Positions 3,962 through 58,249 of a stretch of 64,000 bases of DNA are shown here, piece by piece. The stretch's first letter is position 1. Each line of letters starts with the position of its first letter. The notes below the pieces were generated by a model. It was not told where the DNA came from. It saw nothing but the letters and a program-made list of their open reading frames with translations, and did no database searches. Source of the DNA: an uncultured Clostridia bacterium (GTDB taxonomy: Bacteria > Bacillota > Clostridia > Lachnospirales > Anaerotignaceae); NCBI GenBank assembly GCA_944383885.1, contig CALWRF010000011.1, forward strand, positions 1 to 64,000, written 5' to 3'. The position numbers were made by a program, and so were the translations under genes.

Positions 3962-3990
3962 TTGACATTTGTAATTTTTAGGTTTATACT
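3962..3990 (+). promoter_or_regulatory. Sigma-A promoter of the ilv operon
   Basis: TTGACA (3962-3967), a 17-base spacer and TATACT (3985-3990), placed about 70 bases before the leader peptide start. It is a near-consensus housekeeping promoter, as expected for an operon controlled after initiation by attenuation. Confidence 0.8.
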
Positions 3991-4058
3991 TCCTATAAAT
4001 TTAACTCTTATTTTTCGGGCAAAACATTATGGTAAATAATTTAAAGGAGAAAAAGACA

Positions 4059-4172
4059 ATGTTTAACTTTAACGCTGCCATCGTCATTATTAACATTATT
4101 AACCTCATCATTGATGAGGCTATTTGTGTTGGTAAAAAGCGTTTGGTAAGGTTAAAGATTTCATGGGTTTAA
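4059..4172 (+). CDS. ilv operon leader peptide (Ile/Val/Leu-rich)
   Basis: A 37-codon ORF, ATG at 4059 and TAA at 4170, preceded by AAAGGAGA (4043-4050) at 8 bases. The peptide has 9 Ile, 4 Val and 3 Leu, with a dense run at residues 8-18 (IVIINIINLII). It lies between a strong promoter and a terminator hairpin that precedes ilvB, which is the layout of a leader peptide whose translation senses charged branched-chain tRNAs. The peptide is probably not functional as a protein. Ile-rich leaders of ilv operons are established in enterobacteria; in Firmicutes T-boxes are the usual device, so this is an unusual arrangement. The ORF, ribosome site and composition are seen directly; the mechanism is inferred. 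Confidence 0.85.
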   Translation: MFNFNAAIVIINIINLIIDEAICVGKKRLVRLKISWV

Positions 4173-4211
4173 AAAAATAAGTTAAACTCAAAGCCATATC
4201 AGCCAAACGCT
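4099..4211 (+). promoter_or_regulatory. Alternative RNA pairings of the ilv attenuator (protector and antiterminator)
   Basis: Three competing pairings are visible. TTAACCT (4099-4105, inside the Ile codon run) can pair with AGGTTAA (4149-4155). AGCGTTTGGT (4138-4147) can pair with GCCAAACGCT (4202-4211), which would open the terminator stem. A small perfect hairpin also exists at 4103-4119. A ribosome stalled on codons 8-18 would cover the first segment and free the second to form the antiterminator. Confidence 0.7.
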
Positions 4212-4226
4212 GATATGGCTTTTTTG
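4191..4226 (+). terminator. ilv attenuator terminator
   Basis: A perfect 13-bp stem (4191-4203 with 4209-4221, loop CAAAC) followed by a T-tract. It lies 18 bases after the leader stop and about 30 bases before ilvB, so it must be read through for the operon to be expressed. Confidence 0.9.
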
Positions 4227-4256: not shown

Positions 4257-5924
4257 ATGAAGAAAATGTTGTTAACAGGCTGTGAAATAATAATGGAGGT
4301 ATTAGCCGAACAGGGTGTGGATACTGTATTTGGATACCCCGGAGGACAGGTTCTAAATATCTATGATGCGCTTTATAAAAACCAGCATAGAATTAAGCAT
4401 GTTTTAACAGCTCATGAACAGGGCGCAAGCCATGCAGCAGATGGTTACAGCAGGGCAAGCGGAAAAGTTGGCGTTTGCATAGCAACAAGCGGACCGGGCG
4501 CAACAAACCTTATGACAGGCTTAGCTACAGCTCATGCTGATTCAATTCCGGTTGTGGCAATTACAGGCAATGTGCCTATGGAGCTTATTGGAACAGACAG
4601 CTTTCAGGAAGTAGACACTATAGGTCTTTCAATACCGGTTACTAAACATTCTTTTCTTGTTAAATCGATAGATACACTGGCTTACACTTTAAGGGAGGCT
4701 TTCCGGTTTGCAAAAAGCGGTCGTCCCGGACCTGTACTTGTGGATATTCCGAAAAATGTTCAGGTAGCCAAGACTGAGTATGAGCCTATGGGCGAAGTTG
4801 AAAAAACACCTGATATCAGTCCGGATAAAGACCTTCTTGACGAGGCTGTAAAACTTATAAACAATTGTAAAAAGCCTGTTATATACTGCGGCGGCGGAGT
4901 AATAAACGGAAACTGTTCGGAATATATAGAACCCTTAGCCGAAAAATGCGGTGCTTACGGAGTATTCTCTATGATGGGACTTACTGCTATGGATTGTGAA
5001 AATCCGAGACATTTGGGAATGAGCGGCATGCATGGAAGATATGCGGCAACTAAAACACTTACACAGGCAGACCTTGTTTTGGCAGCAGGTGTAAGATTTA
5101 CAGAACGAGCGACAGGAAACAAGGCTAAATTTGCCGAGCACGCTAAAATAATCCATTTGGATATTGACCCGGCAGAGCACGGGAAAAATATAGACGCTGA
5201 TTTGAAAATACTGGGAAACTTAAAAGAATCCCTTAAATATATATTTGAAAACATAGATGAAAAGTCAAACCCTCAATGGGACAATGAAGTTGAAAAGTAC
5301 AAGGCTAAAGAAAATGAAAACAGGGTTGAAACAAACGCATTAATGCCATGGAATGTAATAGAAACTGTTAACAAAAAAACCTCAGATGATACAAATATAG
5401 CAACCGATGTAGGTCAGCATCAAATGTGGGTGGCTCAGTATTATAAATTCAAAAAACCAAGAACACATCTTACAAGCGGCGGTCTTGGAACAATGGGCTA
5501 TGGAATGGGAGCAGCTATAGGCGCGTGTTTAGCAACAAAAAGACGTACTGTTTTGTTTACCGGCGACGGAAGTTTTGGAATGAATCTTAATGAACTTGCA
5601 ACGGCTGTTTCTCAAAACCTGCCGCTTACAGTTGTTATACTTAACAATAACCGTCTTGGAATGATAAGGCAGTGGCAGAGTTTATTCTTTGATAATCATT
5701 TTATGGCAACTGTTCTTGACAGAAAAACAGATTTTGTAAAACTTGCCGATGCCTTTGGAGCCAAAGGGTACAGAGCGGAAAACATTGAAGAACTTAACAG
5801 CGCCCTTGATAAGGCGTTTGCTTTAAATTCACCTTGTGTTATAGATTGTATAATACCAAATGACGAAAATGTACTTCCAATGGTTCCGCCAAATGGTTCA
5901 GTAGAAAATATGATAATAAAATAA
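4257..5924 (+). CDS. ilvB: Acetolactate synthase large (catalytic) subunit
   Basis: Catalyses the first shared step of valine, leucine and isoleucine synthesis, condensing pyruvate with pyruvate or 2-oxobutyrate using thiamine diphosphate and FAD. The 555 residues show the N-terminal ThDP domain with catalytic Glu near residue 54 (TAHEQGASHAADGYSR), the central FAD domain, and the C-terminal ThDP/Mg motif starting GDGSF near residue 436 and ending NNNRLGM. Two starts are possible: ATG 4257 lies only one base after AGGGG, whereas ATG 4266 (MLLTGCEII) is 10 bases away and gives the N-terminus usual in the family. It is followed by ilvN and ilvC. Controlled by the upstream peptide attenuator. 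Confidence 0.95.
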   Translation: MKKMLLTGCEIIMEVLAEQGVDTVFGYPGGQVLNIYDALYKNQHRIKHVLTAHEQGASHAADGYSRASGKVGVCIATSGPGATNLMTGLATAHADSIPVVAITGNVPMELIGTDSFQEVDTIGLSIPVTKHSFLVKSIDTLAYTLREAFRFAKSGRPGPVLVDIPKNVQVAKTEYEPMGEVEKTPDISPDKDLLDEAVKLINNCKKPVIYCGGGVINGNCSEYIEPLAEKCGAYGVFSMMGLTAMDCENPRHLGMSGMHGRYAATKTLTQADLVLAAGVRFTERATGNKAKFAEHAKIIHLDIDPAEHGKNIDADLKILGNLKESLKYIFENIDEKSNPQWDNEVEKYKAKENENRVETNALMPWNVIETVNKKTSDDTNIATDVGQHQMWVAQYYKFKKPRTHLTSGGLGTMGYGMGAAIGACLATKRRTVLFTGDGSFGMNLNELATAVSQNLPLTVVILNNNRLGMIRQWQSLFFDNHFMATVLDRKTDFVKLADAFGAKGYRAENIEELNSALDKAFALNSPCVIDCIIPNDENVLPMVPPNGSVENMIIK

Positions 5925-5942: not shown

Positions 5943-6470
5943 ATGAAAAATACTTTATCAATAGTTGTTACAAATCAGCCGGGAGTGCTTACAAGGATTT
6001 CATCGCTTTTCAGCCAGAGGGACTTTAATATTGACACTTTTACCTCGGGAAAGACAGAAGATGACGATTATGCCAGAATAACAATTACAGCAAGCGGCGA
6101 CAGCAGAAAAAAAGACCAGATGATAAAACAGATTTCAAAGCTTTATGATGTTAAAAAGGTTGAAGTAATGCAGCCTGAAAATACAATTTTAAGAGAGCTT
6201 TTAATTGTTAAAGTCAGCGCAAGCGGCGAAAAATTAAGGGAAATACTTGACGCAGCATCTGTTTTCAGAAGCAAAGTAGTTGATATGTCTCCAGGCTCAG
6301 TCTGCATAGAAATAACAGGCGAGACAAGCAAAATAGACGCGTTTTTAAATTATATAAAAGACTATGGTATACTGGAATACTGCCGGACTGGGCTTATTGC
6401 AGTCCAGAGAGGCAAACAGTGCCTTTTTGAACACAAAAAGAATTCAAAAAACGAAACAAAAACTGCTTAA
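5943..6470 (+). CDS. ilvN: Acetolactate synthase small (regulatory) subunit
   Basis: The 175-residue regulatory partner of IlvB, which confers valine feedback inhibition. An N-terminal ACT domain (about residues 3-75, opening TLSIVVTNQPGVLTRIS) is followed by the C-terminal activation domain (LIVKVSASGEKLREIL). AAGGAGG at 5923-5929 fits ATG 5943; an ATG at 5939 is out of frame. It lies 18 bases after ilvB. The length is normal for the short ilvH/ilvN form. Confidence 0.94.
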   Translation: MKNTLSIVVTNQPGVLTRISSLFSQRDFNIDTFTSGKTEDDDYARITITASGDSRKKDQMIKQISKLYDVKKVEVMQPENTILRELLIVKVSASGEKLREILDAASVFRSKVVDMSPGSVCIEITGETSKIDAFLNYIKDYGILEYCRTGLIAVQRGKQCLFEHKKNSKNETKTA

Positions 6471-6502: not shown

Positions 6503-7507
<1,005 letters not shown>

Positions 7508-7709: not shown

Positions 7710-8183
7710 ATGCGTATAGGTTATGGCTATGATGTTCACAGGCTTGTTGAAGGTAGAAAACTTATAATAGGCGGTGTTGACATACCTTATGAAAAAGGTC
7801 TTTTAGGTCATTCAGACGCCGATGTTCTGCTGCATGCTGTTATGGATTCGCTACTTGGTGCTGCGGCACTGGGAGATATAGGAAAACATTTTCCTGACAG
7901 CGATGAAAGGTTTAAAGGTATTTCTTCAATTAAGCTGTTAAAAGAAGTTTTAGCCTTGATTAATAAAAATAATTATTGTATAATAAACCTCGACGCTACA
8001 ATTATAGCCCAAAAACCTAAAATGTGGCAGTATATAGACCAAATGCGCTGCAACATTGCCGAGGCTCTTGAAATAGATGCTGATAATGTAAACGTTAAGG
8101 CAACAACAGAAGAAGGTCTTGGCTTTACCGGAAAAGAAGAAGGCATAGCGGCTAATTGTGTCTGTTTAATTGAAAAAAGATAA
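7710..8183 (+). CDS. ispF: 2-C-methyl-D-erythritol 2,4-cyclodiphosphate synthase
   Basis: Fifth enzyme of the MEP (non-mevalonate) isoprenoid pathway. It releases CMP and closes the cyclic diphosphate. 157 residues, the full family length. The metal-binding start [11 protein letters not shown] gives Asp8 and His10, and [29 protein letters not shown] supplies the third histidine and substrate contacts; the C-terminal [10 protein letters not shown] motif binds the CDP moiety. AAAGAGGTGC precedes the ATG. In many Firmicutes it neighbours ispD, gltX, cysE and cysS. Here ispD and gltX are absent and a T-box separates it from cysE. Confidence 0.96.
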
Positions 8184-36674: not shown

Positions 36675-37444
36675 AAAAAATAGAGTATGCTGAAATTTTG
36701 ATTAATGACAAAATTGCTGACGACATATACTCAATGACACTTTTTTCACCTTTTATAGCCAAAGAAGCAAAAGCCGGACAGTTTGTTGAAGTTTATACAG
36801 GTCTTGGGGAGCATATACTCCCTAGACCTATAAGCATTAGTGAAATAGACAGCCAAAACGGAAAAATTACGCTTGTTTACCAAATAGTAGGAAAGGGAAC
36901 AGAATATTTCAGCAAGTGCCCGATAGGAGATTTAATTAAAATAATGGGTCCGTGTGGAAATGGTTTTGAAATTAAGAAGAATGCTAAAAAGCACATACTT
37001 GTAGGCGGAGGAATAGGGATACCACCTCTTGTCCAGCTTTGCAGGGATATTAAAGGAAAAGCAGTTGTTTTTTTAGGAGCTAAATCAAACCCGGTGCTTA
37101 CGGATAAATTCAGAAAATTAGGAGCTGAGGTTTATATAGCCAGTGATGACGGAAGCATTGGTTTTAAAGGCAATGTTGTAGAGCTTATGAAAGAAATTAA
37201 GCCTGAAGGCGACATGGTTTATTCCTGCGGTCCTAAGATAATGCTTAAATTTTTGGCTCAATGGGCAAAAGAAAACAACATTCCTGTTCAGGTTTCAATG
37301 GAGGAAAGAATGGCGTGCGGTATAGGCGCGTGTGTAGGCTGTGCTGTTAAAATCAGAAAGAAAGGCGAAAGCGACTGGCAGAACTTAAAAGTTTGCAAGG
37401 ACGGTCCTGTTTTTATGGGTGACGAGGTGATGTGGGATGAGTAA
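36671..37444 (+). CDS. pyrK: Dihydroorotate dehydrogenase B electron transfer subunit
   Basis: Iron-sulfur flavoprotein that passes electrons from dihydroorotate dehydrogenase to NAD+. 257 residues: an FAD-binding ferredoxin-reductase-like domain ([10 protein letters not shown] at about 55), an NAD-binding domain ([20 protein letters not shown]), and a C-terminal [2Fe-2S] site with cysteines spaced as in [14 protein letters not shown] and a fourth in KVCKDGPVF. The ATGA overlap with carB and 8-base overlap with pyrD indicate coupled translation. Confidence 0.96.
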
Positions 37445-38348
37445 TATAAACACTGAAGTTAATATATGCGGCGTTGTAATGAAAAATCCTGTGACAACAG
37501 CTTCGGGCACATTTGGTTCAGGTCGTGAGTTTTCGGAATTTGTTGATTTGAATAAGCTTGGAGCTGTTACAGTTAAAGGCGTTGCCTCTGAGCCTTGGAA
37601 GGGCAATAACGCGCCGAGAATAGCTGAAGTTTACGGCGGAATGCTTAATTCTGTAGGACTTCAAAATCCGGGAGCTGAGTATTTCATTAATAATGATATA
37701 CCGTTTTTAAGGCAGTTTGACACTAAAATAATTGTAAATATATGCGGACACTCTATTGAAGAATACTGCAAAGCGGCAGAAATGCTTTCAGACAGTGATG
37801 TAGATTTATTTGAGCTTAATATTTCATGCCCTAATGTAAGCCAAGGCGGAATAACATTTGGCACTGTGCCTTCAATGGCGGAAAAAGTAGTTTCTGAGGT
37901 AAAAAAGCATTGCAAAAAACCGCTTATTGTTAAACTTACGCCTAATGTAACTGATATAACAGAAATTGCAAGGGCGGCAGTAAGCGGCGGTGCCGACGGT
38001 TTATCGTTAATAAACACGCTTTTGGGCATGAAAATTGATATTAAAAGACGCAAACCAGTGCTTTTCAACAAAGTTGGAGGTTTTTCCGGACCGGCTGTTA
38101 AGCCTGTTGCCGTCAGAATGGTTTATCAGGTATGCAAAGCAGTTGATGTGCCTGTAATAGGTATGGGTGGCATATCAAATTATGAAGATGCCATTGAGTT
38201 TATAATGGCAGGCGCTACAGCTGTAGCTGTTGGTACGGCAAACTTCAATAATCCTTTTGCCACAGCAGAAGTTGTTGAAGGTATTGAAAAATACATGATT
38301 GAAAATAGTATTAAGGATTTATCTGAAATACGCGGCATTATAGACTGA
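37437..38348 (+). CDS. pyrD: Dihydroorotate dehydrogenase B (NAD+), catalytic subunit
   Basis: FMN enzyme that oxidises dihydroorotate to orotate; class 1B, working with PyrK. 303 residues. TIM barrel with NPVTTASGTFGSGREF at the N-terminus, the active-site Cys in ELNISCPNVSQGG, Lys in LIVKLTPNVTDI, and the phosphate loop VIGMGGISNYEDAIEFIMAGA. The adjacent pyrK and the Cys catalytic base confirm class 1B. 15 bases separate it from pyrE. Confidence 0.96.
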   Translation: MSNINTEVNICGVVMKNPVTTASGTFGSGREFSEFVDLNKLGAVTVKGVASEPWKGNNAPRIAEVYGGMLNSVGLQNPGAEYFINNDIPFLRQFDTKIIVNICGHSIEEYCKAAEMLSDSDVDLFELNISCPNVSQGGITFGTVPSMAEKVVSEVKKHCKKPLIVKLTPNVTDITEIARAAVSGGADGLSLINTLLGMKIDIKRRKPVLFNKVGGFSGPAVKPVAVRMVYQVCKAVDVPVIGMGGISNYEDAIEFIMAGATAVAVGTANFNNPFATAEVVEGIEKYMIENSIKDLSEIRGIID

Positions 38349-38362
38349 TAAGGGGGATTAAA

Positions 38363-39025
38363 ATGCTGGATTCTGCTAAAGTTGAATTTATAGAATTTAT
38401 GATGAGCGCTGATGTTTTAAGATTTGGAAGCTTTGTTACAAAAAGCGGCAGAAACACTCCATATTTTGTAAATACAGGAAACTATAAAACAGGCAGTCAG
38501 ATTGCTACATTGGCTAAATTTTACTCAAAACTTATTAAAGATACTTGCGGAACAGATTTTGACGCTATGTTTGGACCGGCTTATAAAGGTATTCCTCTTG
38601 TTGCGGCAACGGCTGCTAACCTCTTTACAGAATACGGAATTGATAAACCATATTTCTTTAACAGAAAAGAGAAAAAAGACCATGGTGAGGGCGGAAACCT
38701 TGTAGGCTATGCTCCTAAAGACGGCGACAAGGTTATAATTGTAGAGGATGTTATTACAGCCGGAACAGCTATAAGAGAAACAATGCCTGTACTTAAATCA
38801 GCAGCCGACGTTAAAGTTACGGATATGTTCATTTCTGTTAACCGCTGCGAGGTTGGCGCTAACAGCAATAAGACTGCTGTTATGGAAGTTAAAGATGAGT
38901 TTGGACTTAATGTACATGCTATTATTACAGTTGCTGATATTCATGAATACCTTAAAGCAAAGGGCACATACGGTGATGTGCTTAAAAACATGGAAGAATA
39001 CATGGATAAATATTGTATTTTATGA
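38363..39025 (+). CDS. pyrE: Orotate phosphoribosyltransferase
   Basis: Adds PRPP-derived ribose phosphate to orotate, giving OMP. 220 residues. The PRPP motif is KVIIVEDVITAGTAIRETM, and the flexible loop FFNRKEKKDHGEGG carries the catalytic lysines. AAGGGGG precedes the ATG. It is last in the operon; with pyrC, pyrF, carAB and pyrDK, every UMP-synthesis enzyme is here except aspartate carbamoyltransferase (pyrB/pyrI). Confidence 0.95.
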   Translation: MLDSAKVEFIEFMMSADVLRFGSFVTKSGRNTPYFVNTGNYKTGSQIATLAKFYSKLIKDTCGTDFDAMFGPAYKGIPLVAATAANLFTEYGIDKPYFFNRKEKKDHGEGGNLVGYAPKDGDKVIIVEDVITAGTAIRETMPVLKSAADVKVTDMFISVNRCEVGANSNKTAVMEVKDEFGLNVHAIITVADIHEYLKAKGTYGDVLKNMEEYMDKYCIL

Positions 39026-39035
39026 TAGTTTTTTG

Positions 39036-39061
39036 ACAAAAAAGTAAAAAACTTACTTTTT
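39036..39061 (+). terminator. AT-rich hairpin after pyrE
   Basis: AAAAAGTAA (about 39040-39048) pairs with TTACTTTTT (39053-39061). It is a possible weak terminator for the pyr operon; no GC-rich stem is present. Confidence 0.45.
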
Positions 39062-39064
39062 GTA

Positions 39065-39093
39065 TTGAAAAAAATACAGTTACGGAATATAAT
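39065..39093 (+). promoter_or_regulatory. Sigma-A promoter of panC
   Basis: TTGAAA (39065-39070), 17 bases, TATAAT (39088-39093). The predicted start site (around 39100) falls at the base of the next hairpin. Confidence 0.75.
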
Positions 39094-39098
39094 AACAC

Positions 39099-39131
39099 AA
39101 AAGCATGCTTTAGTATGAGCATGCTTTTTTA
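39099..39131 (+). terminator. Terminator-like hairpin at the start of the panC transcript
   Basis: AAGCATGCT (39101-39109) pairs perfectly with AGCATGCTT (39118-39126), followed by TTTT. For upstream reading it is a terminator of the pyr operon; for the panC promoter it would be the first 30 nucleotides of the mRNA. Confidence 0.75.
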
Positions 39132-39157
39132 AAATAAAATAAAAAGGGGCGTAAAAA

Positions 39158-40000
39158 TTGAAAGTAGTACACACTATTAATGAAACGCGTGAAATTATTA
39201 AAAATTGGAAAAAGGAAGGGCTCACAGTAGGTCTTGTGCCTACAATGGGCTTTCTTCATGAAGGTCATAAAAGTCTTATAACACGTGCTGCAAAAGAAAA
39301 TGACAGAGTTGTTGTAAGTGTTTTTGTAAACCCAATACAGTTTGCGGCAAACGAGGATTTGTCAGTATATCCAAGAGATATGGATAAAGACTTTGTTCTT
39401 TGCCAAGACGCCGGAGCTGATTTTATATTTAACCCTTCACCTGAAGAAATGTATTTCGATGATTTTTCAACTTATGTAGATGCTGGAGATGTCACAAAAG
39501 AGCTTTGCGGCAAAAGCAGACCTATACATTTCAGAGGCGTGTGTACTGTTGTTACAAAGCTTCTGAATATAGCTACTCCAGACAGGGCATATTTTGGTCA
39601 AAAGGACGCCCAGCAGCTTGCTGTTGTTAAAAGAATGGTTCGCGACTTAAATGTTGATGTTGAGATTATAGGCTGCCCTATAGTCAGAGAAGAAGACGGA
39701 CTTGCTAAAAGCTCAAGAAATGTATATCTTAACCCTGAGGAACGAAGTGCCGCTACTATACTGCACAAAGCGCTTACAAAAGGTGAAGAAATGGTAAATG
39801 CAGGTGAAAAAGACCCTTCTGCGATTATTAAGGCTGTAAGCGATATTATAAATACAGAAAAGCTTGCTAAAATTGATTACGTAGATGTTGTAAGCTTTCC
39901 AGAAATAGGTCATATTGAAAAAATAGACAGACCTGCCCTTGTTGCTGTTGCTGTTTACATAGGCAAAACAAGGCTTATAGATAATTTTATAACAGATTAA
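39158..40000 (+). CDS. panC: Pantothenate synthetase
   Basis: Condenses pantoate and beta-alanine with ATP to pantothenate, the precursor of coenzyme A. 280 residues. The HIGH-type nucleotide motif is PTMGFLHEGHKSLI; further family segments are SVFVNPIQFAANEDL, RPIHFRGVCTVVTKLLNI, AYFGQKDAQQL and the KMSKS-like GLAKSSRNVYL. TTG start at 39158 with AAAAGGGGC upstream. panB and panD are not adjacent. It is monocistronic. Confidence 0.96.
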   Translation: MKVVHTINETREIIKNWKKEGLTVGLVPTMGFLHEGHKSLITRAAKENDRVVVSVFVNPIQFAANEDLSVYPRDMDKDFVLCQDAGADFIFNPSPEEMYFDDFSTYVDAGDVTKELCGKSRPIHFRGVCTVVTKLLNIATPDRAYFGQKDAQQLAVVKRMVRDLNVDVEIIGCPIVREEDGLAKSSRNVYLNPEERSAATILHKALTKGEEMVNAGEKDPSAIIKAVSDIINTEKLAKIDYVDVVSFPEIGHIEKIDRPALVAVAVYIGKTRLIDNFITD

Positions 40001-40004
40001 AATT

Positions 40005-40034
40005 AAAACACCCTCGCTTGAGGGTGTTAATCTT
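40005..40034. terminator. Bidirectional terminator between panC and the minus-strand gene
   Basis: AACACCCTC (40007-40015) pairs with GAGGGTGTT (40020-40028) with a GCTT loop; T-rich on both outer sides. Confidence 0.85.
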
Positions 40035-40973
40035 TTAGTTTTCTTTATTAAATAAAAAGTTATGATTTATGTCGTATACCTTTGTTAAATAATATTTATT
40101 GCTGTTACCGTCATTTAAAATATTTCCGCTGGAATTTGTACTCAAGCCATAAAGAGTGTTTTCGTAAATATAACCTCGGCTGTCTGCTGTTACAAGCATT
40201 AATCTGAAATTTCCGCTGTTTCCTACATCAAATGTATCGCTTATGTGGATATATGAGTAAACATCACCGTTGTTTTCTAATTCACAGGTATATTCTTTTA
40301 CAGTTTTATCATTTACTAAGGCTATGGCTTTTGCGCTGACTATTTCATAATCAGTGTCGGAGTATTTTGCATAGTTAACGTTTACATCACCTTCTAAATT
40401 AAGTTTACCGTTTGCAACATCACTTTTTGAATAATTAAAATCAGCATAAATATAAGGGAAAAACATCTCTTTTGTGTTTATGCTCAGACTTTCAAGGGAC
40501 TCGGAATAAGAAACGCCGTTGCTCAGTATTTCTATTTTATCCGGATTTATGTCTGTTTCAATAGGACCGGTGTATGTATAAACAAAATCTCCGTTTGAGT
40601 ATGTCATATCATAAGGCACATTGTTTATGTATATTTCAGCTGTTGAACCTTCCTTATATTCTTTAGGTGTAATATTAAATTTAACTTCAACTGTATTGTT
40701 TTCAGAATTTATTTCACCAATGCTGTAATTGGTTTTTGCCAGCATGCTTGACGCTTCGTTTAGTGAGTTTCTTACATCATTAGAAATAGAACCAATGCTG
40801 CTATTTAATATGCTGTAATTATTGTTTAATGTATTTAGTGTATTTTGCATAGATAATAGATTGTTTTCAAGAGTTGATATTTTTATATAAAGCAGTCCGC
40901 AGATTATAAGGCATACAGCGGTTATTATAAGGTTTATGTTCTTTTTAGGCTTTGGGTTTTCGTTATTGTCCAT
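40035..40973 (-). CDS. Membrane-anchored coiled-coil protein of unknown function
   Basis: A 312-residue protein with a short Lys/Pro/Asn-rich N-terminus, one membrane segment (about residues 13-31, NLIITAVCLIICGLLYIKI), a Leu/Asn heptad-like stretch predicted to be coiled coil (about 33-90), and a C-terminal region of about 220 residues rich in Tyr, Asn and Ser with beta-strand pattern, expected outside the cell. No known family is recognised. AAGGAGGCG precedes the minus-strand ATG. No cleavage signal is evident, so it should stay anchored. It is in line with the MGMT gene upstream, but no functional link is evident. Confidence 0.75.
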   Translation of the reverse strand: MDNNENPKPKKNINLIITAVCLIICGLLYIKISTLENNLLSMQNTLNTLNNNYSILNSSIGSISNDVRNSLNEASSMLAKTNYSIGEINSENNTVEVKFNITPKEYKEGSTAEIYINNVPYDMTYSNGDFVYTYTGPIETDINPDKIEILSNGVSYSESLESLSINTKEMFFPYIYADFNYSKSDVANGKLNLEGDVNVNYAKYSDTDYEIVSAKAIALVNDKTVKEYTCELENNGDVYSYIHISDTFDVGNSGNFRLMLVTADSRGYIYENTLYGLSTNSSGNILNDGNSNKYYLTKVYDINHNFLFNKEN

Positions 40974-46231: not shown

Positions 46232-46458
46232 TAAATTAATAAGGTTCTGCTATGAAAAAGAATAGTAACGGACAAAAAGTCTTTAGAGAGTTTCCGGAAG
46301 GTGTAAGGAAATGTCTTTTTACCGTGAAGGCGCTTTGGAGCAGTTTTTTAAAGAGGGCATAGGGTAGAATAAATTGCAAAATGCCAAAAAGGGTGGAACC
46401 GCGGAAGATTAGACCTTTCGTCCCTTACTTTTATAAGTAGGGGAGAAAGGTTTTTATT
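46232..46458 (+). ncRNA. T-box leader, glycine specifier (tRNA-Gly)
   Basis: The T-box motif AAGGGTGGAACCGCGG is at 46389-46404. Stem I shows the GNUG element in GGAAGGTGTAAGG and the specifier loop GAA-GGC-GCTTTGGAG, with Gly codon GGC at 46329-46331. The terminator is a stem with an internal bulge (46413-46430 with 46435-46451) followed by TTTT. Uncharged tRNA-Gly should promote antitermination into glyS. The 5' limit is approximate. Confidence 0.93.
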
Positions 46459-57550: not shown

Positions 57551-57880
57551 TGAGTAGGTCAGATGGTCGCCCTATTTTTAGGGAGGAAAGTCCGGGCTTC
57601 ATAGAGCAGGGCGCCGGTTAACGGCCGGTGAAGGTGACTTCAAGGAAAGTGCAACAGAAATAAACCGCCTGTTTTTTTGCAGGTAAGGGTGGAAAGGTGA
57701 GGTAAGGGCTCACCGCTTTTCTGGTAACAGAAAAGGCTCTGTAAACCCCGCCTGAAGCAAGGTCCGAAAAAGCTTAAGGAATTGCTCGTTCCGCTTTAAC
57801 ATGACCGCATGATGATGCTGGCGACAGCATACCAAGATAGATGACCGTCTAATACAGAACCCGGCTTACAGGCCTGCTCA
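57551..57880 (+). ncRNA. rnpB: RNase P RNA (bacterial, type A-like)
   Basis: Catalytic RNA that removes 5' leaders from tRNA precursors. The universal GAGGAAAGTCCGGGC is at 57583-57597. It is followed by GCAGGGCGCCGG, GGTAAGGGTGGAAAGGTG with the A-type layout of the middle stems, and the 3' part ACAGAACCCGGCTTACAGGCC. P1 closes between TGAGTAGGTC (57551-57560) and GGCCTGCTCA (57871-57880). Length is about 330 nt. Type A against B is judged by eye. Confidence 0.95.
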
Positions 57881-57910
57881 TTAATTAAAAATATTTAAAA
57901 ATTAATTATT

Positions 57911-58015: not shown

Positions 58016-58031
58016 TAAATAAACTGAATAT

Positions 58032-58200
58032 AAAAACTTTCTGGTGCCTGCTTTTAAAGTCAGGATAATAGGGAAGAGGGGTGAGATTCCCTCACGGTGC
58101 CACCGCTGTATTAACTTATTTTAACCTCTTTATTTATGCCACTGTTTAAATGGGAAGGCAGAGAGGTTGGGTTTAAGTCAGAAGACCTGCCAAAAAGTTA
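58032..58200 (+). ncRNA. Cobalamin (AdoCbl-type) riboswitch
   Basis: The class features are in order: GGTGCC at 58043-58048, AATAGGGAA, GGTGAGATTCCCTCACGG, GGTGCCACCGCTGT, GCCACTG (58138-58144), TGGGAAGGC, and the B12 box AAGTCAGAAGACCTGCC (58175-58191). P1 forms between AAACTTT-side and AAAAAGTT at the ends. It senses cobalamin and should switch off the biosynthetic operon. Boundaries are approximate. Confidence 0.95.
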
Positions 58201-58249
58201 TGTACCTCCGCCGGGTCAGCGGAAAAGGGCATTTAATGTGTTATTTGTG

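Follow-up and report, generated by a model that had tools for sequence, protein, structure and literature searches.

A predicted leader-peptide attenuator with isoleucine control codons upstream of ilvBNC in the clostridial family Anaerotignaceae

The genome to which the window belongs (the window being the whole stretch of 64,000 nucleotides that was analysed) carries 15 T-boxes, including those before leuA, leuS, valS, ileS, trpE, cysE, and glyS, and none at either of its ilv operons. How, then, is ilvBNC regulated? The operon consists of ilvB (4257–5924; acetolactate synthase large subunit with Pfam TPP enzyme domains), ilvN (5943–6470; acetolactate synthase small subunit, TIGR00119), and ilvC (6521–7507; ketol-acid reductoisomerase, TIGR00465), all encoded, as are all features described below for this locus, on the forward strand. 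The initial annotation had proposed a leader-peptide attenuator in this T-box-rich clostridial genome, a proposal which is supported by a conserved leader ORF, a covarying antiterminator, and negative searches for a T-box at the site and for codY in the genome. We consider it very likely that the leader is a classical ribosome-mediated transcription attenuator, through which the availability of charged tRNA-Ile and, to a lesser degree, Val and Leu would set ilvBNC expression.

The leader ORF and its control codons

The leader ORF (MFNFNAAIVIINIINLIIDEAICVGKKRLVRLKISWV, 4059–4172) has 37 codons, with the ATG at 4059 and the stop codon at 4170–4172, and is kept in the family. Its own ribosome-binding site, AAAGGAG (4043–4049), is located 9 nt before the ATG, and relatives have an equivalent site before their leader ORFs. 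Further upstream, the promoter-like sequence TTGACA-17-TATACT (3962–3990) matches the consensus at 11 of 12 positions; as a promoter it is suggestive only, sites of this kind being no commoner in the scan than in shuffled sequences.

The content of 9 Ile, 4 Val, and 3 Leu codons is as initially annotated. Against the composition of eight proteins from the window, the probability of at least 16 Ile, Leu, or Val among 37 residues is 0.004, and that of at least nine Ile is 0.002. Codon enrichment by itself is modest evidence, and it is conservation that makes the case decisive. The control codon run (ATC GTC ATT ATT AAC ATT ATT AAC CTC ATC ATT, 4080–4112) consists of nearly invariant codons, as does the stretch GAG GCT ATT TGT. 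At conserved codons which read either AGC or AAC, both forms preserve the pair with U in the hairpin between segments 1 and 2 (1:2 hairpin) described below.

Ile-codon leaders before ilvB1 are referred to as type I and are set against the Leu/Val leaders of a paralogous ilvB. In type I leaders, ATT and ATC make up 97% of the Ile codons compared to 50% in ilvB of the respective genomes, and ATA accounts for 3% compared to 50%; CTC and GTC are over-represented, too. A leader that reads the major tRNA-Ile would be expected to show this preference for ATT and ATC, although the pairing constraint contributes as well. An attenuator of this kind might also sense a general slowing of translation, or several amino acids equally, rather than mainly isoleucine, given that Val, Leu, and Asn codons occur in the leader as well and that the operon also serves the synthesis of Val and Leu. 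We regard this as improbable: Ile dominates the type I leaders (on average 8.3 Ile, 2.9 Val, and 3.0 Leu) but not those of the paralogue (2.9 Ile, 5.7 Val, and 9.1 Leu), and codon identity appears to matter because such a split between paralogues would otherwise be unexpected.

Mutually exclusive RNA structures

The leader ORF is followed by an intrinsic terminator (4190–4226) with a 5-nt loop and a T tract. Its stem, initially described as a perfect 13-bp helix, has 14 perfect pairs (4190–4203/4209–4222; −24.2 kcal/mol, z −8.9) and shows compensatory changes. An intrinsic terminator is also present between the leader ORF and the first gene in relatives; the distance from the stop codon to the terminator stem is 15–36 nt in most leaders and 48 nt in one.

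The antiterminator that had been proposed from the window sequence (4138–4147 with 4202–4211) is present: segment 2 (AGCGTTTGGT, 4138–4147) can pair with segment 3 (4202–4211), which lies within the loop and the 3′ arm of the terminator, by nine perfect pairs (4138–4146/4203–4211) and one G-U pair (z −3.6 for the fold of 4130–4212). An A+T-rich inner stem (TGGGTTTAA/TTAAACTCA, 4164–4190), which includes the leader stop codon, is compatible with this structure. The arms change together in relatives and belong to different sequence families among leaders (AGCG/CGCT, AGTGG/CCACT, AACGG/CCGT, and AGTTATTCGCTG/CAGTGAGTAACT). Across 31 distinct leaders, the duplex of each segment 2 with its own partner averages −14.7 kcal/mol, compared to −9.7 kcal/mol for swapped partners, with none of 20000 permutations as good; this test and those below on leader arms ignore the kinship of the sequences. 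The difference persists if only type I leaders are compared (−14.5 vs. −10.4), and is not seen in the eight Leu/Val leaders, which have nearly the same arms (−16.2 vs. −15.4, 15% of the permutations as good). In an alignment of eight sequences, which holds too little variation, antiterminator covariation by itself is weak, and the support comes from the wider leader set. By this comparison, the antiterminator is exclusive with the terminator and conserved with coordinated changes.

The third element of the initially proposed set of mutually exclusive pairings, a 7-bp protector (4099–4105/4149–4155), did not hold, as complementarity between the two heptamers is confined to the window and the two nearest relatives, with 4–6 of 7 positions pairing in others. 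Thus, terminator and antiterminator are as claimed, but the protector is a different and far larger hairpin (4067–4157), which encloses the control codons and segment 2. The comparison supports this hairpin as the real protector. Its 5′ arm (segment 1, 4067–4110) was recognized from the minimum free energy and centroid structures, the consensus fold, compensatory pairs, and inverted repeats, and its 3′ arm (4112–4157), which includes segment 2, from the same lines of evidence. The outer arm pairs 4067–4084 with 4139–4157, the Ile codons at 4087–4096 pair with 4126–4135, and an inner hairpin (P1) forms the tip.

The protector folds at −34.3 kcal/mol compared to a mean of −16.3 kcal/mol for shuffled sequences (z −5.7, reached by none of 200 shuffles). 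The same kind of long fold is found in all eight relatives tested, with z between −4.0 and −7.3 for the nine leaders, and RNAalifold recovered the long hairpin unprompted. Changes on both sides occur in 8 of 30 protector pairs, a number reached by none of 500 shuffles; slid versions of the pairing are only 30–50% paired. Among 18 type I leaders, own arms average −18.5 kcal/mol and swapped arms −12.7 kcal/mol (0 of 20000 permutations as good), an exchange between genomes thus costing the protector about 6 kcal/mol. Most of the leader ORF is the protector itself, and therefore the codons are conserved and not only the residues. The idea that there is no protector and that the ribosome alone masks segment 2 was ruled out by the arm-swap test and by folding.

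P1 (CCTCATC-ATT-GATGAGG, 4103–4119) is a candidate RNA polymerase pause hairpin. Its pairing is complete (100%) in each of 14 distinct rows and includes two pairs that show compensatory changes; the hairpin is retained in Leu/Val leaders as CCTTATCC/GGATAAGG. Three nucleotides past P1 follows the pause-like sequence TTTGTG (4123–4128), which is invariant or nearly so in type I leaders and in most Leu/Val leaders. Judged by position and conservation, P1 and TTTGTG together probably constitute a polymerase pause.

The comparison supports the ORF, the codon run, and three mutually exclusive pairings with their covariation; from these we infer ribosome stalling, polymerase pausing, termination, and the response to amino acids, which may be pictured as follows. 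With no ribosome on the leader, the long 1:2 hairpin (4067–4157) would lock segment 2, and the terminator formed by segments 3 and 4 (4190–4222) would fold. A ribosome stalled on the Ile run (4080–4112) would occupy the 5′ arm of the 1:2 hairpin and free segment 2 (4138–4147), which could then pair with segment 3 (4202–4211) and allow RNA polymerase to read into ilvBNC. The pause at P1 and TTTGTG would probably hold the polymerase in step with the ribosome. When translation continues as far as the stop codon, which is 17 nt short of the terminator stem, segment 2 would not become available in time, and transcription would stop. This terminator preference under full translation is not fully explained by the footprint of the ribosome at the stop codon. 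Segment 2 is located 24–32 nt upstream of the stop codon, beyond the normal footprint of a terminating ribosome, and would thus be left uncovered. Possibly the 1:2 hairpin folds again in the wake of the ribosome; alternatively, segments 2 and 3 may be kept apart by the ribosome during terminator formation.

Distribution in the family and other candidate regulators

The initial annotation had suggested looking for short Ile-rich ORFs upstream of ilvB in related genomes, and such ORFs are conserved. Searches of 39 relatives by DNA and of 59 by IlvB recovered the same leader before ilvB in many members of the family, and a leader ORF with its own ribosome-binding site was found at 16 ilvB1 loci distributed over the family. 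Among named genomes, a pattern scan gave matches in Anaerotignum sp. MSJ-24, Candidatus Neoanaerotignum tabaqchaliae, Lachnospiraceae bacterium NSJ-143, and other clostridial MAGs. The covariance model of the leader core matches in 25 of 58 family genomes, and it gave no match outside Anaerotignaceae among 295 sampled genomes of the order Lachnospirales and 391 of the class. We found nothing in the open-access literature on leader peptides in Anaerotignum or Lachnospiraceae, and a literature search on attenuation with runaway transcription likewise returned nothing. A diverged Ile leader (L084, G048:C8 123–193), on a contig which ends before the downstream gene, carries an altered segment 2 whose best match is still the loop of its own terminator, itself altered.

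In other genera of Anaerotignaceae, ilvB is preceded by a T-box (L051, L052, L053, L057, L114, and L115), the specifier region of which reads AUC, apparently for Ile, in the three T-boxes that were aligned (L051, L053, and L114). Like the leader described here, these T-boxes would sense charged tRNA, apparently tRNA-Ile; unlike it, they would do so by direct tRNA binding without translation. In the IlvB tree, the T-box-preceded ilvB genes belong to other lineages than the leader-preceded ones, and the switch may therefore have exchanged the entire operon and not just its leader.

The presence of such T-boxes in the family, and of 15 T-boxes in the genome itself, including those before ileS, valS, leuS, and leuA, might suggest that a T-box, a riboswitch, or a CodY-type regulator controls ilvBNC and that the ORF is incidental. 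We consider this very unlikely. A T-box (RF00230; Stem I with the specifier and the UGGNACCGCG antiterminator bulge) has no match at the leader, neither at the gathering threshold nor at a relaxed E-value, and the Rfam 15 families gave only chance-level matches there (Thr_leader with 14.2 bits compared to a cutoff of 55). The codY gene (PF06018) was not found in the genome, which is 100% complete, although the controls, Bacillus subtilis and Lactococcus lactis, were positive; CodY-like boxes are absent within 1.7 kb upstream and occur at chance level in the window.

An equally unlikely explanation, a functional membrane peptide or type I toxin-like peptide whose transcript is merely ended by the terminator, would fit the hydrophobic character of the peptide and the conservation of its DEAICV core in many genomes, but at all loci read that include the next gene, the ORF lies directly before ilvB, and the terminator behind it has a covarying antiterminator; the constraint acts at the nucleotide level (GAG GCT ATT TGT being kept and ATA avoided) and is accounted for by pairing, and in the paralogue's leaders the residues become Leu and Val while P1 persists.

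A second predicted attenuator and comparison with known systems

A second operon on another contig of the same genome (G000:C1, about 37,385–40,635; L102 3386–6636) encodes ilvB2, an IlvM-like small subunit of about 75 residues, which read by eye appears to be a single ACT domain, and ilvC2. The leader before ilvB2 (G000:C1, about 37,290–37,560) has the same P1/TTTGTG and terminator/antiterminator anatomy as the type I leaders, but carries Leu/Val codons in place of Ile (codon run LNLVSLVSLILVDKVLCV). Related Leu/Val leaders precede the paralogous ilvB in seven further genomes and the only ilvB of another (G009). The long protector hairpin was not seen in the Leu/Val leaders, which may therefore have another basal state. 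In the IlvB tree, the type I and the Leu/Val ilvB groups each form one clade (support 99/99 and 100/100), and jointly they form one clade as well. The simplest reading is that an ancestor which was already attenuated was duplicated and that the control codons then diverged along with the paralogues. More tentatively, and as a possibility to which we lean slightly less than to its opposite, the two leaders may be a family-specific homologous pair from one ancestor with diverged codons (Ile for ilvBNC; Leu/Val for ilvB2, the ilvM-like gene, and ilvC2), whose built-in pause element would enable leader-peptide attenuation in a clostridial lineage dominated by T-boxes.

The kind of control proposed is already known, and what is unusual is its evolutionary context. 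In Escherichia coli and Salmonella, ilvGMEDA and ilvBN (ivbL) are preceded by leader ORFs rich in branched-chain amino acid codons with a 1:2 protector, a 2:3 antiterminator, and a 3:4 terminator, and one of the two operons has an Ile-containing leader and the other a Val/Leu leader. These systems thus share with ours an attenuator before acetolactate synthase genes and two operons with different control codons. In contrast, the protector of the leader described here is one long hairpin spanning most of the ORF, and the leader has the P1/TTTGTG element and resides in a T-box-rich genome; by its core model, it has no detectable homology outside Anaerotignaceae in samples of the order and the class.

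Among Gram-positive bacteria, a Leu-rich attenuator peptide of 26 aa precedes ilvD (ilv-leu) in Staphylococcus aureus and works together with CodY (PMC5794164). It shares with our case the leader peptide for branched-chain amino acids and the terminator/antiterminator, where B. subtilis has a T-box (PMC5794164), whereas here the peptide is Ile-rich and precedes ilvBNC, and the genome gave no CodY match. Leaders for branched-chain amino acids have also been predicted in Lactococcus and Streptococcus (cited in PMC5794164). The ilvBNC leader or ilvB-II motif of Corynebacterium (PMC10272879, PMC11857589) likewise combines a short upstream ORF for branched-chain amino acids with a hairpin attenuator before ilvBNC, but is found in Actinobacteria; no Rfam family matches here. 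His leader attenuators predicted in Bacillota, including Eubacteriales (PMC2965389, PMC9413887), likewise are leader peptides where relatives use T-boxes, but they concern histidine genes and lie in other orders or families.

Leader-peptide attenuation depends on coordinated movement of ribosome and polymerase and is the exception to the T-box rule in Bacillota. Anaerotignaceae have both solutions for ilvB and, in addition, two paralogous leaders with different control codons. These natural variants make it testable how a regulator changes the amino acid that it senses, and when control by tRNA binding yields to ribosome stalling.

The ilvD dihydroxyacid dehydratase family is represented in the genome by four genes, all above the curated cutoff (C23 26907, C13 65250, C22 23408, and C38 82637); no leader candidates were found upstream of these or of hisG. 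The initial annotation had also named T-boxes elsewhere in the window, and these are real: the one before cysE at 8180 was confirmed, and the one before glyS (46243–46428) scores 93.0 bits, exactly the Rfam gathering cutoff, and was missed by the whole-window scan. A further T-box (L014, G000:C2 35036–35310) lies upstream of a gene for a TrpX-like ABC transporter substrate-binding protein, which scores below the curated cutoff. The window also carries an RNase P class A RNA (57551–57884), which is followed about 140 nt further on, on the same strand, by a cobalamin riboswitch (58025–58208).
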